A stretch of 64,000 nucleotides of DNA. Source: Methylobacterium sp. NMS14P (lineage in GTDB: Bacteria; Pseudomonadota; Alphaproteobacteria; Rhizobiales; Beijerinckiaceae). Shown here in pieces: positions 6,916 to 19,200 of the stretch (the stretch's first letter is position 1; every line of letters begins with the position of its first letter). Location of the stretch: contig NZ_CP087106.1 in assembly GCF_028583545.1 (NCBI RefSeq), positions 2,712,501 through 2,776,500 on the forward strand, in the 5' to 3' direction. Position numbers and translations under genes: made by a program. Under the pieces are notes generated by a model. That model did no database searches, was not told where the DNA came from, and worked only from the letters and a program-made list of their open reading frames with translations.

Positions 6916-7708
6916 GGAGCGGCGGGTCGAGGCGCGCCGCTCCCGCCCGGCTTCGCGCCCGAGGTGTCCGCGCCGGCGGACCTCGGAGGCAGGCCGCGGC
7001 CCTCGCGCGGCCTCCGGAGGGTTCCCCGAGCTCGCCGCGCTCCGGCCCCGGGCTGCGGGACCGGCAGTGGACACGCGTCATCGTCCCCGCGCGCTCGTGG
7101 CGCCGGGGGCATGGCCCGGGAAACCGCACGAGGGACGCGGGACGCCGCGGGAACCCAGGTGTCGGCCAGGTACGCGCGGGATCCGATCCCCGCGGCGCCC
7201 CGCGGCACCGGCCGGGCGCCTGCCCCGGCCGGTGCCGTCTTTCTCGTCGCGGCGTCTCCAGCGTCCCGGTCCTGCGACTCCCCGTCAGCGGTCTCGGGCG
7301 AGGTGCGCGCACGCCGTGCCCGCACCTCCGGAACCCGCATCGGCGCCGTGGCCTTCCAGCCGTCCCCCGCCTCGTAGTGGGCGGGTCCGCAGGTCGCTCA
7401 GGCTCGGCCCAGACGCGGGTCGGCGCGGGGGCATTTCCTCACCCCGCCGGGCACAGTGCCGCCCGGTCTCACGCCCGCGTCCGAGGCACGCCCCGCACCG
7501 GTCCGCCGCCCGGGGCGATGGCGGCTGAGAGCCACCGACGCGGGCGCCGCCCCGTCCCCGGACCCGCACGGTCAGCCACCGGGCGGGCCCCCGAAGGACG
7601 CCCCGGGATCGCTCCCGGGACGCCGCGGACAGGAAGCACAGAATAGGAACATTGTCAAGGTCGGAGCGCCGTGGGACGGGACGTCTCGACGCGCGAGTCA
7701 GGCGCGGG
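6916..7708. other. gene-poor stretch, nothing coding seen except a hairpin
   Basis: The open frames here on both strands are Arg/Pro/Gly-rich shadows without family features or ribosome sites. Apart from the strong hairpin at 7203-7245 I see no recognisable feature. Very high GC makes random open frames common. Confidence 0.5.
7203..7245 (+). terminator. strong intrinsic terminator-like hairpin
   Basis: Perfect 14-bp arms (CGGCACCGGCCGGG and its complement) are separated by a 7-nt loop and followed on the plus strand by the T-rich stretch TCTTTCT. It lies 290 bp beyond the GMC oxidoreductase stop. It could end a long 3' UTR of that gene or an unannotated small RNA. Confidence 0.6.
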
Positions 7709-7850
7709 TCCCCTCTCCCGTGCGGGAGAGGAACAGGGTGAGGGATCAGGCCTGTCCGGACGTGGCGCGCCCTGGCCGAACCGTGATGGCGCGCGCGATC
7801 CGGAAGCGTCTTATCCCTCACCCCAGCCCTCTCCCGCACGGGAGAGGGGG
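7709..7850. repeat. 142-bp palindromic intergenic repeat, copy 1 (family A)
   Basis: The outer arms CCCCTCTCCCGTGCGGGAGAGG and GAGGG-type complement bracket the unit. Inside them the left AGGGTGAGGGAT pairs with the right TCCCTCACCCC. Each outer arm is also a small hairpin on its own. A near-identical unit lies at 30847-30988 and a half unit at 19314-19336. It resembles REP/MITE-like elements that fold into a cruciform; no gene is inside. Confidence 0.75.
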
Positions 7851-7982
7851 CACGGCGCGGGTGTCCCGACCGACGCCGTCGGGGCGGGATCCTGGCCCAT
7901 CGGCGCGCGGATCCCCGGGATGACGGGCACGCCGTCGCGTCTGCTATGTCGGGCGTCCGAATCCCCATCGAACGCGACGCCC

Positions 7983-8921
7983 GTGGCCATTGACCATATC
8001 GATCTCAGCCGGATCGACCTGAACCTGCTGGTCGCCCTCGACGCGCTGCTCGACGAGCGCAGCGTCACGCGGGCCGCCGCGCGGGTCGGGATCGGCCAGT
8101 CGGCGATGAGCTCGAGCCTCGCCCGCCTGCGCCGCCTGTTCGACGACGAGCTCCTGACCCGGGCGCCGGACGGGATGCGGCCGACGCCCCGCGCCCTCAA
8201 GATCGCCGAGCCGCTGCGCGCCACCCTCCGGCAGGTGCAGGCGCTGGTGCACCGGGAGGAGCAGTTCGATCCGGCCACCGTCGCGCGCACCTTCACGGTG
8301 AGCCTGCCGGACAGCGTCGAGGCGCTGCTCGGGCCGCGGCTGATCGCGCAGCTCCGCCGGGACGCGCCCGGTATCCGGCTGCTGCTGCGCTCGGTCGACC
8401 GGACCCGGATCCTGGACGAGCTCGACGCCGACCGGGTCGACCTCGCCATCGGCCTGTTCTCGGAGGGGCAGCTCCACCACAAGCAGCGCCTCCTCTACCG
8501 GGACAGCTACGTCGTGCTGTTCAACGCCGCGCTGATCGGCCTGGAGCCGCCGATCGGGCTCGACGATTACCTGCGCTTCCCCCACGTGCTGACGTCCCTG
8601 CGCGAGACCGCCCACGGGGTCGTCGACGACGCCCTCGCGCTGATCGGGCGCTCGCGCACCCTGGCGGTGACGACCCCGCGCTTCCTCGTGGTCCCGTTCA
8701 TGGTCCGGGCGGCGCCGGTGATCGCCACGATGCACGCCCGGCTCGCCACCTCCTTCGCCAGCGCCCTGGCGCTCAGCGTCAGCCCCGTGCCGATACCCCT
8801 CGACGACGTGCCCGTGTCGATGCTCTGGCACGCCTCCTACGACCGCGACCCGGCCCATCGCTGGCTCCGGGACCTCCTGGTCCGGCTGGCCCACGAGCCG
8901 CCGGCCCCCGGCATCATCTGA
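7983..8921 (+). CDS. LysR family transcriptional regulator (NodD-like)
   Basis: A 312-aa protein from a GTG start. An N-terminal winged HTH (LNLLVALDALLDERSVTRAA ... QSAMSSSLARLRRLFDDELL) is followed by a type 2 periplasmic-binding effector domain (about 95-300). The start is uncertain. ATG at 7920 gives 21 more residues without family-like sequence, while GTG at 7983 places the HTH at the usual distance from the N-terminus; neither has a clear ribosome site. It converges on the DUF2252 gene with a 9-bp gap. No obvious divergent target gene is present, so the regulated gene and the ligand are unknown. Confidence 0.85.
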   Translation: MAIDHIDLSRIDLNLLVALDALLDERSVTRAAARVGIGQSAMSSSLARLRRLFDDELLTRAPDGMRPTPRALKIAEPLRATLRQVQALVHREEQFDPATVARTFTVSLPDSVEALLGPRLIAQLRRDAPGIRLLLRSVDRTRILDELDADRVDLAIGLFSEGQLHHKQRLLYRDSYVVLFNAALIGLEPPIGLDDYLRFPHVLTSLRETAHGVVDDALALIGRSRTLAVTTPRFLVVPFMVRAAPVIATMHARLATSFASALALSVSPVPIPLDDVPVSMLWHASYDRDPAHRWLRDLLVRLAHEPPAPGII

Positions 8922-8930
8922 GCCCGCGGC

Positions 8931-10418
8931 TCAGAGGCAGGGATCGTCCGCGGCCTCCAGGCGGCCGCTCGCGATCGCCGCGCGGAACAGGGCGAAGTCG
9001 GCCGCATTGCGCTCCGCGTAGGCCGCGGCCCAGTCGGCGATCGCCCCGCTCAGGTCGTGGTGCTTGCCGCTGCCGCAGTAGCCGGCGATCGCCGCCGCGT
9101 CGCCGGTCCGCGCGTGGGCGCGCGCGAGGAGCGTCCCGTAGGCGTACGAGAAGGTCAGGAGCGGACCGCCGGACATCCGCGCCAGCGGGATCGCGCCCTT
9201 CAGGTTCTTCATCTGGCGCACGTAGAACGGCCGGCCCGCGATGCTGGTCCAGCCGAGCAGCGGGTCGCCCACCGCCTGGAGCAGGCGCTGGCCGTAGATC
9301 ACCCGCTCGCCCCCGTGCCCGGAGAACGGCGCCGGCACGCCCGGCAGGTACGGCGCGTGCGCCGGGCGGACCGCCTCCTTGACCTGGAGGAAGAGCGCGT
9401 CGGCGTCGGAATTGCCGAACAGCAGCGCGAGGTAGGCCCGGGTCCCGACGCTGCCGACGCCGACGACGCGGTGGGCGACGTCGACCACGTGGTAGCGGTC
9501 GAGCATGAAGCGCCGCTCCCGCGGCAGGGTCTCGGCGTAGCGCTCCAGGCCGGTGACGACGCCCTCGCGGGTCGCCGCGTCCACCGGCGTCAGGATGGGC
9601 GGATCGGTCTGCAGGCGCCAGCTGCCGTCGGTGCGCCGCTCGGCCACCTGGGCGAGCAGGCTGCGGTTGTTCCGCCGCCGCGCCTTGTCGACCGCCCGCC
9701 GCACCACGGCCCGGGCCTCCGCGTCCATCTGGAGCCCGGCGATGTGCGGGCCGTCGGCGCGGGTGGTCTGGTACCAGACGTCGAGGGAGCCCTGCGGGGC
9801 GAGGCGCCGCATCGTGTGCTGGTAGCCGGAGACCGCCTCCATGATCGCCGCGCGACGCTCGGCCGCCGGCACGCCCGCGTCGTCGGTGGCGACTGCCAGC
9901 CCGGCCGCGAGGCGCTTGAGGTCCCATTCCCAGGGGCCGATCGTGACCTCGTCGAAATCGTTGAGGTCGAGGACGACGTCGCGCTGCGGCGTGCCGAACA
10001 GGCCGAAATTGTCGGTGTGCGCGTCGCCGTTCATCACGACGTCGATGCCGCTGCGCGGCCCGCGCGACAGGTCCCAGGCCATGACGTGCGCGGCCCCGCG
10101 CAGGAACGCGAAGGGCGAGCTCGCCATCCGGGCGACCCGCAGCGGGATCAGGTGCGGCTGGCGGCCCTCGTGGGCGGCCTCGATCAGGGCGACCGGGTCG
10201 GGCCGGTCCGGATCGGGGTCCAGCCCGGCCTGGCGCGCGTGGGGCACCTCGGCGCGCAGCCGCTTGCCGGCCTTGCGGCGCTTGTCCCAGGCCTCGACGC
10301 CCGCGCGGAGGTCGATCCGCGGGAACTCGGCGACCGGCGCCAGCACCGATTCCACGCCCGGGGCGTCTGCCTCCCGGTCCTCGGGCGGCGCCGTCTTGTC
10401 GCTCTCGATGCGATCCAT
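8931..10418 (-). CDS. DUF2252 family protein
   Basis: A 495-aa protein recognised as DUF2252 from its N-terminal basic W-D-K-R-R region, the motif NGDAHTDNFGLFG and the following DLNDFDE. That pair of motifs resembles the catalytic and metal-binding loops of aminoglycoside/choline-kinase-like enzymes (HGDxHxxN and DxD), so a small-molecule kinase-like fold is plausible but is an inference. The start MDRIESD was chosen over an ATG 28 codons upstream because the extra residues are Arg/Gly-rich filler. It is divergent from the decarboxylase/PHA cluster across a 264-bp promoter region. Its function is unknown. Confidence 0.82.
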   Translation of the reverse strand: MDRIESDKTAPPEDREADAPGVESVLAPVAEFPRIDLRAGVEAWDKRRKAGKRLRAEVPHARQAGLDPDPDRPDPVALIEAAHEGRQPHLIPLRVARMASSPFAFLRGAAHVMAWDLSRGPRSGIDVVMNGDAHTDNFGLFGTPQRDVVLDLNDFDEVTIGPWEWDLKRLAAGLAVATDDAGVPAAERRAAIMEAVSGYQHTMRRLAPQGSLDVWYQTTRADGPHIAGLQMDAEARAVVRRAVDKARRRNNRSLLAQVAERRTDGSWRLQTDPPILTPVDAATREGVVTGLERYAETLPRERRFMLDRYHVVDVAHRVVGVGSVGTRAYLALLFGNSDADALFLQVKEAVRPAHAPYLPGVPAPFSGHGGERVIYGQRLLQAVGDPLLGWTSIAGRPFYVRQMKNLKGAIPLARMSGGPLLTFSYAYGTLLARAHARTGDAAAIAGYCGSGKHHDLSGAIADWAAAYAERNAADFALFRAAIASGRLEAADDPCL

Positions 10419-10514
10419 CGCTGTCCCATCGCGGAATGCGGGCCTGCCTCGACCGCGCGGTTGACCGCCCCGAAGCCGGAGCGGACGTCCACACGGTAGC
10501 ATCCGGCCGGCTCT

Positions 10515-10682: not shown

Positions 10683-12335
10683 ATGCCCAAGGGTTCAGAT
10701 CTCCTCGTCGCCGCCCTCGAGAACGAGGGCGTCGATCGCATCTTCGGAATTCCCGGGGAGGAGAATCTCGACGTCGTCGAATCTCTGCGGAACTCCAAGA
10801 TCGAGCTGGTCCTGACCCGGCACGAGCAGGCGGCGAGCTTCATGGCCGCCACCCACGGCCGCCTCACCGGCCGGCCGGGCGTCTGCCTCTCGACGCTGGG
10901 CCCGGGCGCGCTGAACTTCTCCACCGGCGCGGCCTACGCGCATCTCGGCGCCATGCCGATGATCATCATCACCGGCCAGAAGGGCATCCTGTCCTCGCGG
11001 CAGGCGAAGTTCCAGATCGTCGACGTGATCTCGTCGATGAAGCCGATCACCAAGATGGCCCGGCAGATCGTCTCGGCCTCCTCGATCCCCACCATCGTGC
11101 GCGACGCCTTCCGGGTCGCCACCGAGGAGCGGCCCGGCCCGGTGCTGCTGGAGCTGCCGGAGGACATCGCCGCCGAGGAAGCCGAGGCCGACCTCGTGCC
11201 CTCGCACCCGATCGACATCCCGGTCGCCCACCCGGCCGCGATCGACCGCGCCGCCGCCATGATCCTGGGTGCCAAGCGGCCGCTGGTCATGCTGGGCGCC
11301 GCCGCGAGCCGCCCCCGCGCCACCGGCGAGCTCGGCGGCTTCGTGCAGCGCACCGGCATCCCGTTCTTCACCACCCAGATGGGCAAGGGCACCGTCGCGG
11401 GCGGGACCGACCTCTACATGGGCACCGCGGCGCTCTCGGAGCGCGACTACGTCCACGAGGCGATCGACAAGGCCGACCTGATCATCGCCATCGGCCACGA
11501 CACGATCGAGAAGCCGCCCTTCTTCATGGGCCAGGCCGACCAGAAGGTCCTGCACATCAGCTACATGCCGGCCAACGTCGAGCAGGTCTACTATCCGGAC
11601 GCCGAGGTGGTCGGCGACCTCGGGCCGACGCTGAAGCTGCTGGCCGACAAGCTCGACGGCAAGCTCCCGAACGCGGGCGCGCTGCTGCACCTGCGCGAGC
11701 ACATCCTCAGCCATATCGGCGACCGGGCCGGCGAGGACCGCTTCCCGGTGACGCCGCAGCGCCTCGTGCGCGACGTGCGCCGGGTAATCCCCGAGGACGG
11801 AATCGTCTGCCTCGACAACGGGATGTACAAGATCTGGTTCGCCCGGAACTACCGCACCTACGTCGCCAACACGCTGCTCCTCGACAACGCGCTGGCCACG
11901 ATGGGCGCGGGCCTGCCCTCGGCCATGATGGCGGCGATGCTCTACCCGAAGCGGCGCGTGATGGCCGTGTGCGGCGACGGCGGGTTCATGATGAACAGCC
12001 AGGAGATGGAGACCGCCGTCCGGCTGAAGCTCAACCTCGTGGTGCTGGTGCTCGACGACTCGGCCTACGGGATGATCCGCTGGAAGCAGGCGGTCGACAA
12101 GTTCGCCGATTACGGGATGACCTTCGGCAACCCGGACTTCGTCCTCTACGCCAAGTCGTATGGCGCCACCGGCCACCGGGTCGAGTCGGTCAACGACCTC
12201 GTGCCGACCCTCGACCGCGCCTTCGCGGCGGGCGGGGTGCACCTCGTGGCGGTGCCGATCGACTACTCGGAGAACACCCGCGTGCTGGTCGACGAGCTGC
12301 GCGCCAAGGTGAAGGATTTCGAGCCGGCCGAGTGA
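10683..12335 (+). CDS. acetolactate synthase-like ThDP enzyme; candidate 2-oxoglutarate decarboxylase
   Basis: A 550-aa ThDP enzyme with the three usual domains: N-terminal pyrimidine-binding domain with the catalytic Glu48 in RHEQAA, a central domain (about 190-330), and a C-terminal pyrophosphate-binding domain with GDG at about 431-433 and a partner motif ending VLDDSAYG. It looks like acetolactate synthases. However, the N-terminal GIPGEENL, TRHEQA and STLGPG match my memory of the cyanobacterial ALS-like proteins shown to be 2-oxoglutarate decarboxylases. No small regulatory subunit (IlvN) is nearby, and the gene heads a cluster with an Fe-ADH, PHA synthase, CoA-transferase and SSADH. 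Producing succinic semialdehyde would explain all of these. Alternatives are catabolic acetolactate synthase or a 2-hydroxyacyl-CoA lyase. The start was chosen by family N-terminus; the Shine-Dalgarno is weak. Confidence 0.8.
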   Translation: MPKGSDLLVAALENEGVDRIFGIPGEENLDVVESLRNSKIELVLTRHEQAASFMAATHGRLTGRPGVCLSTLGPGALNFSTGAAYAHLGAMPMIIITGQKGILSSRQAKFQIVDVISSMKPITKMARQIVSASSIPTIVRDAFRVATEERPGPVLLELPEDIAAEEAEADLVPSHPIDIPVAHPAAIDRAAAMILGAKRPLVMLGAAASRPRATGELGGFVQRTGIPFFTTQMGKGTVAGGTDLYMGTAALSERDYVHEAIDKADLIIAIGHDTIEKPPFFMGQADQKVLHISYMPANVEQVYYPDAEVVGDLGPTLKLLADKLDGKLPNAGALLHLREHILSHIGDRAGEDRFPVTPQRLVRDVRRVIPEDGIVCLDNGMYKIWFARNYRTYVANTLLLDNALATMGAGLPSAMMAAMLYPKRRVMAVCGDGGFMMNSQEMETAVRLKLNLVVLVLDDSAYGMIRWKQAVDKFADYGMTFGNPDFVLYAKSYGATGHRVESVNDLVPTLDRAFAAGGVHLVAVPIDYSENTRVLVDELRAKVKDFEPAE

Positions 12336-12378
12336 TCTCGGCTCCGCAGACGGATCGGCAGGACAACAGGGCAGCGCG

Positions 12379-13554
12379 ATGAACCCGTTCACCTTCCAGA
12401 CCACGCCGAACGTGCTGTTCGAGGCCGGCGCCGCGAAGAAGCTGCCCGAGATCGTCGGCAGCTTCGGGGCCAGGCGCGTCCTGCTGGTCACCGACAAGGG
12501 CGTGCGCGGGGCCGGCCTCACCCAGGCCGCCGAGGCGGCGCTTGCGGAGGCCGGAATCACCCTCGACGTCTACGAGGACGTGGTCGCCGACCCGCCCTCG
12601 ACGGTGATCGAGGCGGCGGCCAAGCGCGCCCGGGACCTCGGGACCGACCTCGTCCTGTCGATCGGCGGCGGCTCGGCGCTCGATACCGCCAAGCTCGTGG
12701 CCTACCTCGCCAAGTCCGACGAGCCGCTCGATTCGATCTACGGCGTCGGTCTCGCCAAGGGCGACCGGCTGCCGCTGATCCTCGTGCCGACCACCGCCGG
12801 CACCGGCTCGGAGGTGACGCCGATCTCGATCGTCACGACGCCGACCACCGAGAAGAAGGGCGTCGTCGCGCCGAAGCTCCTGCCCGACTGGGCGGTGCTC
12901 GACCCGGAGCTGACGCTCGGCCTGCCGTCGCACGTCACGGCCGCCACCGGCATCGACGCCATGGTCCACGCCATCGAGGCGTTCACCAGCAAGAACAAGA
13001 AGAACCCGATCTCCGACCAGCTCGCCAAGCAGGCGCTGGCGCTGCTCTCGGCCAACATCCGCACCGCCTGCGCGGACGGGAAGAACCTCGAGGCGCGCTC
13101 CGGCATGCTGCTCGGCTCGATGCTGGCCGGCATGGCCTTCGCCAACGCGCCGGTCGCGGCGGTGCACGCCCTGGCCTACCCGGTGGGCGCGATCTTCCAC
13201 GTGCCGCACGGGCTCTCGAACGCCCTGGTGCTGATGGGGGTGATGCGCTTCAACCTCTCGCACGCGGAGGCGCTCTACGCCGAGCTGGCGCCGATCCTCG
13301 ACTCCGCGGCCGCGGACCTGCCGCGGCCCGAGGCCGCCAAGCGCTTCGTGGAGAGCCTCGACGCGATCTGCCGCGACTGCAAGGTGCCGGCCTCGCTCGC
13401 CGAAGTCGGCGTCGCCCGGCAGGACCTGGAGCGCATGGCCACCGACGCGATGAAGCAGACGCGGCTCCTCGTGAACAACCCGCGCGAGGTGACCTACGAC
13501 GACGCCTTCGCGATCTACGCCGAGGCGCTCGGGGAGGCACGGCCGGCGGCGTGA
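12379..13554 (+). CDS. iron-containing alcohol dehydrogenase; candidate 4-hydroxybutyrate dehydrogenase
   Basis: A 391-aa group III alcohol dehydrogenase. The nucleotide-binding motif GGGS is at 96-99. The metal ligands fall at the family positions: Asp193, His197, His263 and His277. It lies 43 bp after the ThDP enzyme, so it is likely co-transcribed. By context the substrate pair is probably succinic semialdehyde/4-hydroxybutyrate with NAD(P)H, but the family also reduces many short aldehydes, and sequence alone does not fix the substrate. A 92-bp palindromic repeat separates it from phaE. Confidence 0.85.
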   Translation: MNPFTFQTTPNVLFEAGAAKKLPEIVGSFGARRVLLVTDKGVRGAGLTQAAEAALAEAGITLDVYEDVVADPPSTVIEAAAKRARDLGTDLVLSIGGGSALDTAKLVAYLAKSDEPLDSIYGVGLAKGDRLPLILVPTTAGTGSEVTPISIVTTPTTEKKGVVAPKLLPDWAVLDPELTLGLPSHVTAATGIDAMVHAIEAFTSKNKKNPISDQLAKQALALLSANIRTACADGKNLEARSGMLLGSMLAGMAFANAPVAAVHALAYPVGAIFHVPHGLSNALVLMGVMRFNLSHAEALYAELAPILDSAAADLPRPEAAKRFVESLDAICRDCKVPASLAEVGVARQDLERMATDAMKQTRLLVNNPREVTYDDAFAIYAEALGEARPAA

Positions 13555-13608
13555 GCTTGACGACGGCGGTGATGCTGGGGCTGTCGCCCGATCAGTCCAG
13601 CCCACACC

Positions 13609-13700
13609 GTCATCGCGAGCGCAGCGAAGCGACCCAGGGCGGCGCGCCGTCGTTGAGCATGGCGCTGCTGGCTTGCTTCGCTCCGCTCGCAAGGACGGCG
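13609..13700. repeat. 92-bp palindromic repeat, copy 1 (family B), inside the cluster
   Basis: The left arm (GTCATCGCGAGCGCAGCGAAG) and the right arm (GCTTCGCTCCGCTCGCAAGGAC) are near complements. Two relatives occur at 26817-26908 and 36718-36810. It sits between the alcohol dehydrogenase and phaE genes and could attenuate read-through or stabilise one part of the mRNA. Confidence 0.75.
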
Positions 13701-13744
13701 GGTTCGAAGTCTTCAGCCCCGGGGCTGTGAGGAGAGACGCCAGC

Positions 13745-14575
13745 ATGGACCAGTTCGACGCGTTCCGGGCGATGAGCGAGTTCTGGACCCGGGCCGGCGC
13801 GGGCTTCTTCACCCCGGGCGCCGGGCAGGCCGCGCCCGGCTTCGGCTGGCCGACCTTCCCGGGGGGCGACCTCGCGGATCTCGCCGCGGCGCAGGCCAAG
13901 CTGAGTGAGGCCTGGACTTCCGCCACCGCCCTCTCGCAGACCCTCGCGAAATCCCTCCAGGGCGGCCCCGGCGCGCCGGACCCGACCGCCGGGGCGGTGC
14001 TGGCCCGGATCTTCGACCCGCAGGCCTGGCTCGGCGGCTCGGCCGAGTTCGACGCCGCCCTGACCCGCATGGCCGAGGGTCCGCAGCTCGCCGACCTCTG
14101 GCAGACCGAGCGGCGCTACGCGGCCCTGTTCACCGCCTGGGCGACGCTCCGGCGGGCGCAGAGCGAGCATCAGGCCGTGATGCTCGACGCCTGGACCCGC
14201 GCCGCCGGGACCTTCGCCCAGCAGGCCAATGCCCGCGCCGAGCGCGGCGAGAGCTTCGCCTCCGCCCGCGAGATGATGAGCGGGTGGATCGAGACCGCCA
14301 ACGCGGTCCTGCTGGAGGTGCAGCGCTCGGACAAATTCCTGGCCTCGCAGCGGGCCGTGCTCCGGGCCTCGACCGACCTGCGCCTCGCCCAGCAGGACGT
14401 CGCGGCGTTCCTGTCCGAGTTCTACGGCCAGCCGACCCGGGCCGAGCTCGACGACGTCCACAAGAGCCTGACCGAGCTGCGCCGCGAGGTCCGGGCGCTG
14501 CGCCGGGAGCGCCGGCAGGCCGGCAAGGTCGCGAAGGCGGGTGGTTCACAGGTCGGGGAGGAAGCCCATGGCTGA
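13745..14575 (+). CDS. phaE: class III PHA synthase subunit PhaE
   Basis: A 276-aa PhaE-like protein starting MDQFDAFRAMSEFW and ending in a charged alpha-helical, probably coiled-coil tail. It contains the family-like stretch FLSEFYGQPTRAELDDVHKSLTELRREV, typical of PhaE C-termini where the subunit contacts PhaC. PhaE is not catalytic; it activates PhaC and together they form the granule-bound class III synthase. The stop overlaps the phaC start by 8 bp (ATGGCTGA), implying translational coupling. PhaE proteins elsewhere are often longer (over 300 aa as I recall), so this is a short version. The start was chosen at the ATG 8 nt after GGAGAG; the upstream frame runs into the repeat. Confidence 0.85.
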   Translation: MDQFDAFRAMSEFWTRAGAGFFTPGAGQAAPGFGWPTFPGGDLADLAAAQAKLSEAWTSATALSQTLAKSLQGGPGAPDPTAGAVLARIFDPQAWLGGSAEFDAALTRMAEGPQLADLWQTERRYAALFTAWATLRRAQSEHQAVMLDAWTRAAGTFAQQANARAERGESFASAREMMSGWIETANAVLLEVQRSDKFLASQRAVLRASTDLRLAQQDVAAFLSEFYGQPTRAELDDVHKSLTELRREVRALRRERRQAGKVAKAGGSQVGEEAHG

Positions 14576-15698
14576 TCAGGAAAGCCCGAAGGGGCCGGCC
14601 GCGCCGCTGAATCTCACCCCCGCCGCGTTGCTGGCCGAGGTCGGCACCCTCGGCCGCCGGATCAGCGAGGGCGCCAAGCTGTTCGCCGATGTCAGCGACG
14701 CGGATGTCGAGATCGCCACCACGCCGAAGGACCTGGTCTGGAGCCAGGACAAGGTCAGCCTCTACCGCTACCGGCCGCTCGCCGAGAGCAAGGGCCTGCC
14801 GCCGGTGCTGATCGTCTACGGGCTGATCGGCCGCTACACGATGGCCGACCTGCAGGAGGACCGCTCGCTGGTCCGCAACCTCCTGAAGCTCGGGCTCGAC
14901 CTCTACGTGGTCGACTGGGGCAATCCGGGCCGGGCCGACCGCTACGTCACCATCGACGATTACGTGGACGGCTACCTCGCCGAGTGCGTCGCCTTCATCC
15001 AAGAGGCGGCCGGGCGGGAGAAGGTCAGCCTGCTCGGCATCTGCGAGGGCGGCGTCTTCACCACCTGCTACGCGGCGCTCTACCCCGAGACCGTCAACGC
15101 GATGGTGCTGACCATCACGCCGATCGACTTCCACGCCGACACGCGGGAGAACCGGGCCGGCCACGGCTTCATCAACGTCTGGACCCGCTCGCTCACGCCC
15201 GAGGATGTCGACCGGCTGATCGAGGCGCAGGGCTCCCTGCCCGGCGCCTTCATGGGCTCGGTGTTCTCGATGATGACGCCGATGCGCACCATGACGAAGT
15301 ACAACCTCGACCTGCTCGACGCCCTCGACGACAAGAAGAAGTTTTTGAATTTTCTCCGCATGGAGAAGTGGATCGCCGACCGTCCGGACCATCCCGGCGA
15401 GGCCGCCAAGCAGTGGCTGAAGGACCTCTACCAGGACAACAAGCTGGTCGAGAGCGCCTTCGAGCTCGGCGGTCGGCGGGTGGAGCTGAAGGCCATCACC
15501 TGCCCGGTGCTGAACGTCTTCGCCCAGGACGACCACATCATCCCGCCGGCCACCTCGCAGGCGCTGAAGGACCGAATCGGCACCACCGACTACACCGAGA
15601 TGGGTCTGCCCGGCGGCCATGTCGGCGTCTTCGTCGGCGGCAAGGCACAGAAGCTGCTGGGCTCCGGCATCGCCGACTGGCTCGGCAAGCGGGGATAA
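14568..15698 (+). CDS. phaC: class III PHA synthase catalytic subunit PhaC
   Basis: A 376-aa alpha/beta hydrolase, matching the short class III length rather than about 560-600 aa for class I. The lipase-like box is GICEGG with nucleophile Cys159. Asp322 (DHIIPP) and His351 (PGGHVG) complete the triad at the expected spacing. It polymerises hydroxyacyl-CoA onto Cys159 with release of CoA, at the granule surface with PhaE. GGGGAGGAAG lies just before the ATG. Class III enzymes prefer short-chain 3- or 4-hydroxyacyl-CoA. The absence of phaA/phaB here and the presence of a CoA-transferase argue for a monomer other than plain 3-hydroxybutyrate. Confidence 0.93.
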   Translation: MADQESPKGPAAPLNLTPAALLAEVGTLGRRISEGAKLFADVSDADVEIATTPKDLVWSQDKVSLYRYRPLAESKGLPPVLIVYGLIGRYTMADLQEDRSLVRNLLKLGLDLYVVDWGNPGRADRYVTIDDYVDGYLAECVAFIQEAAGREKVSLLGICEGGVFTTCYAALYPETVNAMVLTITPIDFHADTRENRAGHGFINVWTRSLTPEDVDRLIEAQGSLPGAFMGSVFSMMTPMRTMTKYNLDLLDALDDKKKFLNFLRMEKWIADRPDHPGEAAKQWLKDLYQDNKLVESAFELGGRRVELKAITCPVLNVFAQDDHIIPPATSQALKDRIGTTDYTEMGLPGGHVGVFVGGKAQKLLGSGIADWLGKRG

Positions 15699-15722
15699 CG
15701 TGCAGGCTCGGGGGAGTGCCGC

Positions 15723-17735
15723 ATGGGCAGCCTGAAGAACAAGATCGTCAGCGCCGACGAGGCCGCCGCCATCCTGCAGGACGGCGACATGGTCGCGGTC
15801 TCGGGCTTCGTCGGGATCGGCACGCCCGACGAGCTGATCCTGGCGCTCGCCCGCCGCTTCGAATCCGGCAACGGCCCGCACGGGATCGGCCTGATGTTCG
15901 CCGCTGCCCCCGGCGACGGCAAGGAGCGCGGCCTCAACAAGCTCGCGATCCCGGGCCTTGTCCGCCGCGTCGTCGGCGGCCACTGGGCGCTCGTGCCGAA
16001 GCTCGGCGCCATGGCGGTGGCGGGCGAGATCGAGGCCTACAACCTGCCGCTCGGCGTGGTCTCGCATCTCTACCGGGAGATCGCCGCCCACACCCCCGGC
16101 CACATCACCAAGGTGGGCCTGCGCACCTTCGTCGACCCGCGGCTGGAGGGCGGCAAGCTCAACGCCGTGACGCGGGAAGACCTCGTCAGCGTGGTCGAGC
16201 TCGGCGGCGAGTCCTGGCTCCACTACAAGGCCTTCCCGGTCAACGTCGCGCTGATCCGCGGCACCACGGCCGACCCCGCCGGCAACATCACCATGGAGCG
16301 CGAGGCGCTCACCCTCGACAACCTCGCGGCCGCCATGGCGGCGAAGAACTCGGGCGGCTTCGTCATCGCCCAGGTCGAGCGGCTCGCCGAGGCCGGCTCC
16401 CTCAACCCGCGCGAGGTGCAGGTGCCCGGCGTGCTGGTCGATTGCGTGGTCCTGAGCAGTCCCGAGAACCACCGCCAGACCTACGGCACGCCCTACAACC
16501 ACGCCTTCACGGGCCGCCAGCGGGTGCCGCTCGACCGGATCGCCCCGATGGCGCTCGACACCCGCAAGGTCATCGCCCGGCGCTGCGCCTTCGAGCTGCC
16601 TCCGGGCGGCGTGGTCAATCTCGGCATCGGCATGCCCGAGGGCGTCGCGGCGGTCGCCGCCGAGGAGCGGGTGCTCAAGTACCTGACGCTGACCGCCGAG
16701 CCCGGCGTGATCGGCGGCCTGCCGCAGGGCGGGCTGGATTTCGGCGCCGCCCTCAACCCGGCCGCCGTGCTGCACCAGAACCAGCAATTCGACTTCTACG
16801 ACGGCGGCGGCCTCGATCTCGCCTGCCTGGGCCTCGCCCAGTGCGACGCCGAGGGCAACGTCAACGTCAGCCGGTTCGGCACGCGGCTCGCGGGCGCGGG
16901 CGGATTCATCAACATCTCGCAGAACGCCAAGAGCCTCGTCTTCGCCGGCACCTTCACGGCCGACGGCCTCAAGGTGGCGGTGGAGGACGGCGGCATCCGG
17001 ATTCTCAGCGAGGGCCGCTCGCGGAAATTCATCGCCGCGGTGGAGCAGGTGACCTTCTCGGGAGCCTACGCGGCCGAGCGCGGCCAGCCGGTGCTCTACG
17101 TGACCGAGCGCTGCGTGTTCCGCCGGACCCGGGCCGGCATGGAGCTGGTCGAGGTCGCGCCGGGCATCGACATCCAGCGCGACATCCTCGGCCAGATGGG
17201 CTTCACCCCGATCGTGCAGGACCCGCAACCGATGGACCCGCGCCTGTTCCGCGAGTCCGTGATGGCGCTGGAGCCGTGGCTGCTGGGCCTCTCGCTGTCG
17301 GAGCGGATCAGCTACGACCCGGAGCGCAACATCCTGTTCTCGAACCTCGAGGGTTTCCAGGTCCGGACCATCGACGACGTCGAGCTGGTGCGCCGCGAAT
17401 ACGAGCGCGCCTGCCAGGAGATCGGGCGCAAGGTCCACCTAATCGCCAACTACGACGGTTTCGAGATCGACCCGACGGTGAGCGACGCCTACTTCTCGGC
17501 GATCGCCTATCTCGAAAACCGCTATTACGAGACCGCGTCCCGGTATACCACGAGCGCGTTCATGCGATTGAAACTCGGCGCCTCGTTGGCGAGCCGCGAC
17601 CTGGCTCCCCATGTCTTCGAGACAAAAGCCGAGGCGCAGGCGAGGAATACGGCCCAGAGCGTGCCTCTCAAGCCGCGGCCCGGCATGTCCCAGCCCGACA
17701 TGCCGCGGCCGCCGAAGGAACCGTTGGATGCCTGA
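15723..17735 (+). CDS. family I CoA-transferase (acetate/propionate/4-hydroxybutyrate type) with C-terminal extension
   Basis: A 670-aa protein. The two CoA-transferase halves are fused (about 1-280 and 285-515), like YdiF/propionate CoA-transferase. The catalytic glutamate is Glu326 in AEPGVIGG, close to the position known in propionate CoA-transferase. About 140 further residues (from about 530) go beyond the usual 520-530 aa. They contain ISYDPERNILFSNLEG and RKVHLIANYDGFEI, which look like a small alpha/beta fold of STAS/SpoIIAA type, ending in a Pro-rich tail. In context it would move CoA from acetyl- or succinyl-CoA to 4-hydroxybutyrate. Lactate, propionate or acetoacetate are alternatives. 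It lies 24 bp after phaC, and its stop overlaps the next start by 8 bp. Confidence 0.85.
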   Translation: MGSLKNKIVSADEAAAILQDGDMVAVSGFVGIGTPDELILALARRFESGNGPHGIGLMFAAAPGDGKERGLNKLAIPGLVRRVVGGHWALVPKLGAMAVAGEIEAYNLPLGVVSHLYREIAAHTPGHITKVGLRTFVDPRLEGGKLNAVTREDLVSVVELGGESWLHYKAFPVNVALIRGTTADPAGNITMEREALTLDNLAAAMAAKNSGGFVIAQVERLAEAGSLNPREVQVPGVLVDCVVLSSPENHRQTYGTPYNHAFTGRQRVPLDRIAPMALDTRKVIARRCAFELPPGGVVNLGIGMPEGVAAVAAEERVLKYLTLTAEPGVIGGLPQGGLDFGAALNPAAVLHQNQQFDFYDGGGLDLACLGLAQCDAEGNVNVSRFGTRLAGAGGFINISQNAKSLVFAGTFTADGLKVAVEDGGIRILSEGRSRKFIAAVEQVTFSGAYAAERGQPVLYVTERCVFRRTRAGMELVEVAPGIDIQRDILGQMGFTPIVQDPQPMDPRLFRESVMALEPWLLGLSLSERISYDPERNILFSNLEGFQVRTIDDVELVRREYERACQEIGRKVHLIANYDGFEIDPTVSDAYFSAIAYLENRYYETASRYTTSAFMRLKLGASLASRDLAPHVFETKAEAQARNTAQSVPLKPRPGMSQPDMPRPPKEPLDA

Positions 17736-19200
17736 GTTCGAGACCCCCTCCCTGAAGGACCGCGCCCTGCTGGTCGATGCCTGCCTGATCGGCGGCGAAT
17801 GGTCGAAGGCCGGTTCCGGCAGCATCGACGTCACCAACCCGGCGACCGGCGCGCTGATCGCCAAGGTGCCGAATGCCGGCGCCGACGAGACCCGCCGGGC
17901 GATCAAGGCGGCGCATGAGGCCTACCCGGCGTGGCGCGCCAAGACCGCCAACGAGCGCGCCGTGCTGCTGCGCAAGCTCGCGGCACTCGTGACCGAGCAT
18001 CAGGAGGATCTGGCGCAGATCCTCACCGCCGAGCAGGGCAAGTCGCTGACCGAGTCCCGCGGCGAGGTCGCCATGTCGGCCGCCTACGTGCTGTGGTTCG
18101 CGGAAGAAGCGCGCCGCGTCTACGGCGACGTGGTCCCCTCCCCCTGGGGCGACCGCAAGATCCTCGTCACCAAGGAGCCGGTCGGCGTCGTGGCGGCGAT
18201 CACGCCGTGGAACTTCCCGTCCTCGATGATCGCCCGCAAGATCGCCCCGGCGCTCGCCGCCGGCTGTCCGATCGTGATCAAGCCCGCCTCGCAGACCCCG
18301 CTCTCGGGCCTCGCCTGGGGCGTGCTGTGCGAGCGCGCCGGCTTCCCGGCCGGCACGGTCTCGATCCTCACCGGCTCGGCCCGCGCCATCGGCGCCGAGA
18401 TGACCGGCAACCCGCTCGTCAAGAAGATCACGTTCACGGGCTCCACCGAGGTCGGCAAGGTGCTGCTGGAGCAGGCCGCCCACACGGTGAAGAAGGTCTC
18501 GATGGAGCTCGGCGGCAACGCGCCGTTCATCGTGTTCGACGACGCCGATCTCGACCGGGCGGTCGCCGGCGCGATGCTCGCCAAGTACCGCAATTCGGGC
18601 CAGACCTGCATCTGCACCAACCGCTTCCTGGTGCAGGACGGGATCTACGACGCCTTCGCGGAGAAGATGGCCGAGGCGGCCAACCGCCTGAAGGTCGGCA
18701 ACGGCGTTGAGGACGGCGTCGCGCAAGGGCCGCTGATCGACATGGCGGCGGTGGAGAAGACCGAGGCCCATATCCGCGACGCCGTCGAGAAGGGCGGCCG
18801 AGTGGTGGCGGGCGGCCACCGCCACGCGCTGGGCGGCCAGTTCTTCGAGCCGACGGTGATCACCGGCGCCACCCCCGCCATGGCGGTGGCCCGGGAGGAG
18901 ACCTTCGGGCCGCTGGCGCCGCTGTTCCGCTTCCGCGACGAGGCGGAGGCGATCCGCATGGCCAACGACACCGAGTACGGCCTCGCCTGCTACTTCTACA
19001 CCCGCGACCTCGGCCGCACCTTCCGGGTCGCGGAAGCGCTGGAATACGGCATGGTCGGGATCAACGAGGGGATCATCACCACCGAGGTGGCGCCCTTCGG
19101 CGGCGTGAAGGAATCCGGTCTCGGCCGAGAGGGCTCGTACCAGGGCATCGAGGATTACCTGAACACCAAGTACCTGTGCGTGGGCGGGCTGGGCGCGTAG
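17728..19200 (+). CDS. gabD: NAD(P)-dependent succinate-semialdehyde dehydrogenase
   Basis: A 490-aa aldehyde dehydrogenase. The general base Glu260 (MELGGN), the nucleophile Cys294 in GQTCICTNRF and the NAD site motif FTGSTEVG at 236-243 are all present. The CxC with TNRFLV is typical of SSADH (GabD) sequences. It would oxidise succinic semialdehyde to succinate, closing the bypass of 2-oxoglutarate dehydrogenase if the first gene makes succinic semialdehyde. The start ATGCCTGA overlaps the CoA-transferase stop by 8 bp, so it is translationally coupled to it. No GABA transaminase is nearby, so the aldehyde must come from elsewhere, fitting the ThDP enzyme at the head of the cluster. Confidence 0.88.
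   Translation: MPEFETPSLKDRALLVDACLIGGEWSKAGSGSIDVTNPATGALIAKVPNAGADETRRAIKAAHEAYPAWRAKTANERAVLLRKLAALVTEHQEDLAQILTAEQGKSLTESRGEVAMSAAYVLWFAEEARRVYGDVVPSPWGDRKILVTKEPVGVVAAITPWNFPSSMIARKIAPALAAGCPIVIKPASQTPLSGLAWGVLCERAGFPAGTVSILTGSARAIGAEMTGNPLVKKITFTGSTEVGKVLLEQAAHTVKKVSMELGGNAPFIVFDDADLDRAVAGAMLAKYRNSGQTCICTNRFLVQDGIYDAFAEKMAEAANRLKVGNGVEDGVAQGPLIDMAAVEKTEAHIRDAVEKGGRVVAGGHRHALGGQFFEPTVITGATPAMAVAREETFGPLAPLFRFRDEAEAIRMANDTEYGLACYFYTRDLGRTFRVAEALEYGMVGINEGIITTEVAPFGGVKESGLGREGSYQGIEDYLNTKYLCVGGLGA

Follow-up and report, generated by a model that had tools for sequence, protein, structure and literature searches.

A putative natural operon for the synthesis of 4-hydroxybutyrate polyester from 2-oxoglutarate in Methylobacterium

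Introduction

What does a bacterium make when an acetolactate synthase-like enzyme, an alcohol dehydrogenase, a polyhydroxyalkanoate (PHA) synthase, a coenzyme A (CoA)-transferase and a succinate-semialdehyde dehydrogenase (SSADH) are encoded in one row? This question is raised by six genes in a 64,000-nt stretch of Methylobacterium sp. NMS14P (hereafter the window; NZ_CP087106.1, positions 2,712,501 to 2,776,500). An initial annotation had proposed that they lead from 2-oxoglutarate to poly-4-hydroxybutyrate. Following up on this proposal, we put the probability at roughly two in three that the six genes constitute a naturally occurring operon that directs the synthesis of a 4-hydroxybutyrate (4HB) polyester from 2-oxoglutarate, judging from sequence data.

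The case is built on the identities and order of the genes, their conservation, their motifs, two active-site lysines and the pairing with citrate-to-2-oxoglutarate genes in relatives, all of which were read from the sequences. From these we infer what each substrate is, which way the flow runs, what the polymer consists of and that the operon serves as a sink, as follows. A thiamine diphosphate (ThDP)-dependent enzyme would decarboxylate 2-oxoglutarate, derived from citrate or the tricarboxylic acid (TCA) cycle, to succinic semialdehyde, which an iron-containing alcohol dehydrogenase (Fe-ADH) would reduce to 4HB, consuming NAD(P)H. The family I CoA-transferase would then form 4HB-CoA from 4HB and an acyl-CoA donor, and PhaE–PhaC would polymerise it, alone or together with 3-hydroxybutyryl-CoA (3HB-CoA) made via the cell's PhaB; a 3HB/4HB copolymer and the pure 4HB polymer (P4HB) are equally likely products. 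SSADH would provide an oxidative exit to succinate, for excess succinic semialdehyde or for 4HB regained from the polymer. In related bacteria, the pathway would set in at an earlier stage, with a citrate-like acid being imported and converted by aconitase and isocitrate dehydrogenase, and the operon would thus act as an overflow for citrate/2-oxoglutarate and as a sink for electrons. Among these claims, the substrate of the ThDP enzyme is the firmest, followed by the identity of the polymer unit, while the physiological role is the least certain.

Results

Six genes of the expected families lie in one uninterrupted row

The window genome (6.88 Mb, three contigs) is Methylobacterium-like, and its nearest named relatives are Methylobacterium. 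Six same-strand genes of the families named in the initial annotation are present in the window (Table 1), all with uninterrupted ORFs between positions 10683 and 19200. The two reported 8-bp stop/start overlaps are exact (PhaE/PhaC, 14568-14575; CoA-transferase/SSADH, 17728-17735). The ORFs fill this stretch with no space between them for phaA/phaB, IlvN or a 4-aminobutyrate (GABA) transaminase, which bears out the claim that these are missing from the set; for phaA, IlvN and GABA transaminase this negative is limited to the six-gene stretch, as none of these three was searched genome-wide. The ratio of nonsynonymous to synonymous substitution rates (dN/dS) was <1 for every one of the six genes in comparisons with five other Methylobacterium loci, with PhaE giving the highest value of the six in all five (0.27-0.78).

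Table 1. Genes of the six-gene set and features upstream of it (positions in the window)
Feature	Position	Strand	Remarks
ThDP-dependent enzyme, PRK08322/NF006187 family	10683..12335	+	database name acetolactate synthase large subunit; read here as putative 2-oxoglutarate decarboxylase (KGD)
Iron-containing alcohol dehydrogenase (Fe-ADH)	12379..13554	+	read here as putative succinic semialdehyde reductase / 4-hydroxybutyrate dehydrogenase
PhaE, class III PHA synthase subunit	13745..14575	+	PF09712 above gathering score
PhaC, class III PHA synthase catalytic subunit	14568..15698	+	TIGR01836; 8-bp overlap with PhaE
YdiF-like family I CoA-transferase, C-terminal extension of ~150 aa	15723..17735	+	read here as putative 4-hydroxybutyrate CoA-transferase
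Succinate-semialdehyde dehydrogenase (SSADH, GabD-like)	17728..19200	+	8-bp overlap with CoA-transferase gene
LysR-type regulator	7971..8921 (longest ORF 7671-8921; start codon not settled)	+	possibly operon regulator
DUF2252-like ORF	8931-10502	-	between LysR gene and ThDP gene

The ThDP enzyme keeps both docked substrate lysines of a 2-oxoglutarate decarboxylase

The ThDP enzyme passed the family model NF006187 (PRK08322; 828.5 bits, cut-off 509, residues 3-543) and stayed under the cut-offs of both AlsS models (NF006378, 438.9 of 510; TIGR02418, 405.0 of 551). Its closest solved chain, 13bb (448 bits), is named acetolactate synthase. For comparison we used MaKGD, the 2-oxoglutarate decarboxylase of Microcystis, which accepted 2-oxoglutarate but none of the five other 2-oxo acids tested (PMC10418658). 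Its key residues were named there by docking and mutagenesis: the docked 2-oxoglutarate contacts are K386, K471, V382 and Q254, and the docked ThDP contacts are A384 and H385.

No cyanobacterial KGD was found among the named rows in the best 120 of ~8000 matches in each of two protein searches, nor in the 40 of 1713 plasmid records listed. With no such sequence in hand to align, we matched the MaKGD residues to the window enzyme by position, using a constant offset (three in the C-terminal part). This gave E48, K383, A405, M407, D432, D459, Y462 and K468. The tested ThDP-site residues of MaKGD (E50, M410, D435, D462, Y465) thus correspond to E48, M407, D432, D459 and Y462, and both docked substrate lysines are kept (K386/K471 as K383/K468); M464 takes the place of MaKGD L467. 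In an alignment of 110 rows (98 distinct sequences; L066 dropped), all eight residues were invariant except for Y462 (109 Y, 1 F). By contrast with the window enzyme, an ancestral AlsS-type chain has Tyr and Gln where it has the two lysines, and the seven ThDP paralogues of the window genome have lysine at neither position (tblastn control; position 383 was readable in six).

Two genomes, both of one further genus, have a second ThDP clade (L155 and L156; L and G numbers denote our loci and genomes), ~40% identical to the window enzyme, in the same arrangement with Fe-ADH, PhaE, PhaC and CoA-transferase genes. Members of this clade carry the MaKGD-type residues V/A/H/K/A/M/D/D/Y/L, with His replacing K471, and pass the AlsS model NF006378 (528 and 533, cut-off 510). 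That two distant ThDP clades occur in one gene context argues for a common reaction.

The set is conserved across genera

Methylobacterium was searched in 71 genomes for the ThDP gene and in 69 for the CoA-transferase (G069 and G070 lie outside the latter search). An orthologous CoA-transferase (78-100% identity) was present in 25 of the 69, including the window's own genome, and in all 25 the ThDP gene lay 3181-3989 bp upstream on the same strand. We further looked for ten neighbour genes around close relatives of the ThDP gene in 80 named loci, some neighbourhoods being read only via reference-gene matches. PhaE, PhaC and the CoA-transferase were all found downstream of the ThDP gene in 17 loci (12 Methylobacterium, four Bradyrhizobium and one Acidisphaera metagenome-assembled genome, MAG), and a partial set in none. 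Of these 17 PHA loci, 16 also encoded Fe-ADH, at 72-97% identity, and an SSADH match (71-99%) was present in 13, that of L064 being a 112-aa piece.

The initial annotation had made its reading depend on the six genes staying together in related genomes. They hold together in Methylobacterium, and the set is also kept, with gains or losses, in Bradyrhizobium, Bosea, the Acidisphaera MAG and Sinorhizobium, so that the reading is not refuted on this point. We reject chance clustering, given the ThDP gene upstream in all 25 Methylobacterium genomes and the all-or-none occurrence of the PHA genes in the 80 loci; the gene order and strand kept across genera and the dN/dS values likewise indicate more than chance. 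A single origin of the operon was not supported, as well-supported branches of the ThDP tree (89 rows, quick method, 79 of the 80 named loci; L066 dropped) require at least three changes between PHA-linked and other genes. The scattered PHA-linked ThDP genes fit repeated assembly or transfer, which plasmid transfer may explain. In the same tree, L087, titled Frankia sp. RB7, fell within the Bradyrhizobium branch, likely due to contamination or mislabelling.

Neighbouring genes point to citrate and 2-oxoglutarate

In the locus of Bradyrhizobium jicamae (L061), genes for a 2-hydroxycarboxylate symporter (468 bits with PF03390, cut-off 26), the aconitase AcnA (which passes TIGR01341 with 1332, cut-off 945) and isocitrate dehydrogenase lie upstream. 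A PRK10406-type permease (650, cut-off 550; NCBI name MFS family transporter), which we take to be KgtP-like, is encoded between Fe-ADH and PhaE. Across the 80 loci, isocitrate dehydrogenase was found upstream of the ThDP gene in six, four of them PHA loci, AcnA in three, the symporter in four and the PRK10406-type permease, directly upstream, in four. In a Methylobacterium locus (L163), isocitrate dehydrogenase directly precedes the ThDP gene, and in L075 and L113 it precedes a ThDP gene without PHA genes. In the upstream symporter match of M. dankookense (L059), two of the first 36 codons are stops, which may precede the true start. Genes leading from citrate via isocitrate to 2-oxoglutarate would thus feed directly into the ThDP enzyme.

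ThDP genes without PHA genes pair with an annotated SSADH or another aldehyde dehydrogenase. One such dehydrogenase, ALDH2, directly adjoins the ThDP gene in 19 of the 80 loci (17 without PHA genes and two PHA loci), and SSADH lies beside it in L058. It is the aconitase, isocitrate dehydrogenase, symporter and permease neighbours, together with this pairing and the two lysines, that make 2-oxoglutarate the probable substrate of the ThDP enzyme.

Two-component systems were observed upstream of citrate-type operons (L062:1028-3117, L064:137-2220 and L173:1-1686). For the response regulators in L062 and L064, the top-scoring model was TctD, presumably a tricarboxylate regulator (222 and 226 bits; cut-off 337).

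Reductase, transferase, synthase and SSADH

Motif residues could be located in the ThDP enzyme (E48, D432 and D459), PhaC, Fe-ADH, SSADH and the CoA-transferase, in agreement with the earlier claim of intact catalytic motifs, several of the roles being our assumption. Fe-ADH belongs to the iron-ADH superfamily (PF00465, PF25137) and has D193, H197, H263 and H277. PhaE passed PF09712 (71.5, cut-off 25.7) and stayed below TIGR01834 (77.6 of 154.95). PhaC passed TIGR01836 (383.8, cut-off 365.3) and contains C159, D321/D322 and H351, and SSADH passed TIGR01780 (689.6, cut-off 646.35), stayed below NF008415 (733 of 828) and contains C294 and E260. We take the residues listed for these three enzymes to be catalytic.

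The CoA-transferase passed PF01144 (113.8, cut-off 23), which places it in family I, and its nearest solved relative is YdiF (431 bits). E326, invariant in all 17 aligned sequences, aligns to YdiF residue 333; both are presumably catalytic. OrfZ of Clostridium kluyveri is a CoA-transferase of another kind. A structure model of the window protein was too poor to be used (mean pLDDT 42). The transferase is not specific to the operon: the window genome carries a second, stand-alone copy (54% identical, C1:398765-400681), and among 385 class-level genomes a long homologue was present in 14, of which only three (G000, G235, G340) had ThDP and PHA matches around it in the 14-20 kb read. Residues ~520-670, beyond the YdiF-like part, had no Pfam match, and this extension is also present in stand-alone homologues. 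The roles of Fe-ADH and the CoA-transferase in a 4HB pathway are those that gene context suggests, both proteins lying outside the curated 4HB families.

Plasmid-borne relatives and variants

Relatives of the set were also found on plasmids. In Bosea vaviloviae Vaf18, a conjugative plasmid (L173, NZ_CP017148.1) carries, in annotated order, genes for a sensor kinase, a response regulator, acnA, an isocitrate/isopropylmalate dehydrogenase, an 'acetolactate synthase', an iron-containing alcohol dehydrogenase, PhaE, PhaC, a CoA-transferase, phaP and an alpha/beta hydrolase. Sinorhizobium meliloti plasmids carry the set as well, with the ThDP gene of USDA1963 in two pieces and only a fragment of PhaC in LMB1. 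The plasmids of the Bosea and Sinorhizobium copies (L173, L176, L177) were typed conjugative, and that of a Skermanella copy mobilizable. We examined nine of the 25 listed plasmid records with the CoA-transferase: the ThDP gene was alongside in six (once in two pieces) and absent from three.

In the Skermanella, Caballeronia and Paraburkholderia plasmids (L175, L178, L181), an unrelated zinc-type ADH replaces Fe-ADH, next to a ThDP gene of 69-77% and a CoA-transferase of 61-64% identity; a granule-associated phasin is encoded near the set in the latter two genera. This substitution suggests, from gene content, that the series 2-oxo acid, aldehyde, alcohol, CoA ester is what stays. In L178 and L181 a conserved upstream ORF is annotated as a class I SAM-dependent methyltransferase, that of L178 having no NCBIfam match at E 1e-20.

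Two further plasmids show the ThDP gene with SSADH. On the plasmid of Halorarius halobius (L171), an annotated SSADH gene overlaps an acetolactate synthase-like gene (617 bits with NF006187) in which the two substrate lysines are conserved, likely an archaeal pair of 2-oxoglutarate decarboxylase and SSADH. Plasmid pMNOD01 of M. nodulans (L172) carries gabD with the ThDP gene; the two follow genes for a DASS anion symporter, a CoA transferase, a citryl-CoA lyase, an amidohydrolase and an MFS protein, an arrangement that hints at another citrate-linked route.

We lean slightly towards the view that a mobile citrate-to-poly-4-hydroxybutyrate operon, extending from the symporter through class III synthase and phasin, occurs across Alphaproteobacteria, partly on conjugative plasmids, with a Burkholderiales variant for monomer supply (zinc-type reductase and phasin, no PhaEC in the stretch), and that plant- and soil-associated bacteria thereby bank TCA carbon and reducing power as 4HB polyester.

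Genomic context in the host and upstream genes

Outside the set, the window genome carries SucA (the E1 component of 2-oxoglutarate dehydrogenase), PhaB and a class I PhaC, so that the operon would be an addition to normal TCA and poly-3-hydroxybutyrate metabolism. The presence of SucA weakens the idea that the operon fills a gap in the TCA cycle; overflow and an electron sink are a more likely role than repair of the cycle.

Of the genes upstream of the set, the LysR gene was matched upstream of the ThDP gene in nine named Methylobacterium loci (L047-L055), in one of which (L055) it directly adjoins it. The intervening gene, presumably DUF2252-like, was matched in eight.

Discussion

Evidence against a 4HB operon and alternative explanations

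Several observations weigh against a 2-oxoglutarate-to-4HB operon. In the ThDP enzyme, the window clade has N379, M381 and Y382 where MaKGD has V382, A384 and H385, and Q254 had no placeable counterpart without the MaKGD sequence; moreover, the roles of K386 and K471 come from docking, neither being among the mutants described (PMC10418658). Fe-ADH scored well below the 4HB-dehydrogenase model NF058672 (255.3, cut-off 500), its best NCBIfam match being sulfoacetaldehyde reductase (300 of 700). The CoA-transferase exceeded no NCBIfam cut-off (best FadX, 396 of 750) and stayed just under the gathering score of PF02550 (23.6 vs 24), which we take to be the family of OrfZ/AbfT-type 4-hydroxybutyrate CoA-transferases. 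Among the neighbours, the L061 symporter was below the cut-off of the citrate model TIGR00783 (456 of 549), the isocitrate dehydrogenases were below that of PRK08997 (434-449 of 510; L061, 434) and the ALDH2 partner failed the SSADH model (258 of 646). The operon CoA-transferase was absent from nine of the 34 Methylobacterium genomes with the ThDP gene (≥79% identity) that were examined for both, a further ThDP genome, G070, lying outside the transferase search; L094 had no Fe-ADH match; and 40 of the 80 ThDP loci contained none of the ten neighbours sought. In the six of these neighbour-less loci with ORFs listed, no PHA or aldehyde partner was recognised. Finally, none of the three zinc-ADH stretches contained a PhaE or PhaC match.

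What else could the genes do? Succinic semialdehyde made from 2-oxoglutarate might mostly be oxidised by SSADH, in a TCA bypass or in catabolism, so that ADH, CoA-transferase and PhaEC would form only a small outlet for the aldehyde or act on another hydroxy acid. ThDP genes accompanied by an aldehyde dehydrogenase without PHA genes (the 17 ALDH2 loci, L058, M. nodulans and the haloarchaeal plasmid) would fit this, as would the position of SSADH as the last gene of the window operon. However, a genome with 2-oxoglutarate dehydrogenase E1 has no gap to fill, and PhaE, PhaC and CoA-transferase occur together in all 17 PHA loci, each with dN/dS <1; we therefore consider this explanation unlikely. 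The substrate could also have another chain length, with 2-oxoadipate or oxaloacetate leading to a 5-hydroxyvalerate or 3-hydroxypropionate polymer. Fe-ADH and the CoA-transferase pass no substrate-specific model, the N/M/Y residues are unlike MaKGD, and the isocitrate dehydrogenases are matched as well by AksF2, a model for homoisocitrate dehydrogenase (324-335 bits). Yet isocitrate dehydrogenase is still their best model (434-449, under 510), AcnA exceeds its equivalog cut-off (1332 vs 945) and SSADH exceeds the SSADH cut-off, which makes other chain lengths improbable.

Two further explanations give the ThDP enzyme another role. As a true acetolactate synthase, it would serve acetoin- or 2,3-butanediol-type products or a lactate-containing PHA, in line with the database name of its family and with the name of 13bb. 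The NCBIfam AlsS models and the gene neighbourhoods led us to judge this very unlikely: the window enzyme lies under both AlsS cut-offs (though the L155/L156 clade passes NF006378), the AlsS-type chain has Tyr and Gln at the lysine positions, and acetolactate decarboxylase and IlvN were unlisted in the annotated plasmid neighbourhoods read, whose tables are incomplete, while aconitase, isocitrate dehydrogenase or SSADH were found there. Least probable of all, in our view, is an operon for 4HB utilisation, in which 4HB taken up or freed from polymer would be oxidised to succinate and the ThDP enzyme would be unrelated. An alpha/beta hydrolase closes several related operons, and in Cupriavidus the breakdown of 4HB was assumed to pass through succinate semialdehyde and succinate (PMC7147479). 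Against this, the ThDP gene comes first in the set, upstream in all 25 genus-level operons, and oxidising 4HB needs no decarboxylase. Polymer formation from 2-oxoglutarate via 4HB thus remains our preferred reading.

Comparison with known systems

The same order of steps, from 2-oxoglutarate via succinic semialdehyde, 4HB and 4HB-CoA to polymer, has been engineered for P(3HB-co-4HB). According to PMC7147479 and PMC8659255, ogdA of Synechococcus PCC 7002 was used to obtain 4HB copolymers in two hosts: Synechococcus 7002, where gbd1 and cat2 came from Porphyromonas gingivalis, and Halomonas bluephagenesis, where sucD, 4hbD and orfZ came from C. kluyveri, each together with PHA synthase genes. 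Whereas these pathways combine genes of different organisms, the steps proposed for Methylobacterium lie in one natural, conserved gene set, which differs further in its YdiF-like transferase and class III synthase and, in relatives, in the addition of aconitase and isocitrate dehydrogenase.

With the cyanobacterial 2-oxoglutarate decarboxylase and SSADH (SYNPCC7002_A2770, sll1981, MaKGD), the window set shares an acetolactate synthase-like ThDP enzyme, the docked lysines, the ThDP residues and SSADH. It differs in the replacement of V382/A384/H385 by N/M/Y and in its reductive, polymer-forming branch. Furthermore, the cyanobacterial pair is described as acting in organisms without 2-oxoglutarate dehydrogenase (PMC10418658), whereas the window genome has SucA. 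In the sucD-4hbD-cat1-orfZ system of C. kluyveri, succinic semialdehyde is likewise converted to 4HB, followed by CoA transfer; unlike in the window set, the aldehyde comes from succinyl-CoA, and the accessible text mentions no PHA synthase in that native pathway. Class III synthase operons such as phaABEC (PMC7147479) have PhaE and an overlapping PhaC in common with the window set, and some of its relatives resemble them further in having a phasin, PhaR or alpha/beta hydrolase nearby. The 3-hydroxyacyl supply by phaA/phaB is replaced here by genes whose putative function is to provide 4HB-CoA from TCA-cycle carbon.

According to one review, wild-type strains formed 3HB-4HB copolymers only when supplied with related precursors, for example gamma-butyrolactone (PMC7147479); another lists few exceptions on unrelated carbon sources, namely Hydrogenophaga pseudoflava, whose pathway is described as still to be understood, and Bacillus cereus (PMC8659255). 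A 2-oxoglutarate decarboxylase activity has been noted in Bradyrhizobium (Green et al. 2000, as cited in PMC10418658). In the open-licence literature, whose coverage excludes most subscription papers and preprints, we found no description of a natural operon of this kind. The route from 2-oxoglutarate to 4HB polymer has mainly been known from engineered strains.

If our reading is true, a natural operon with its own TCA-derived route to the monomer would explain where 4HB polymers could arise. It would also provide a matched enzyme set for polymer production from citrate or sugars; poly-4-hydroxybutyrate is described as the sole PHA-type polymer that the FDA has approved for medical use (PMC8659255). 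For the biology of these bacteria, it would mean that a 2-oxoglutarate decarboxylase exists alongside 2-oxoglutarate dehydrogenase in one organism, and that many genes now named acetolactate synthase are misnamed.

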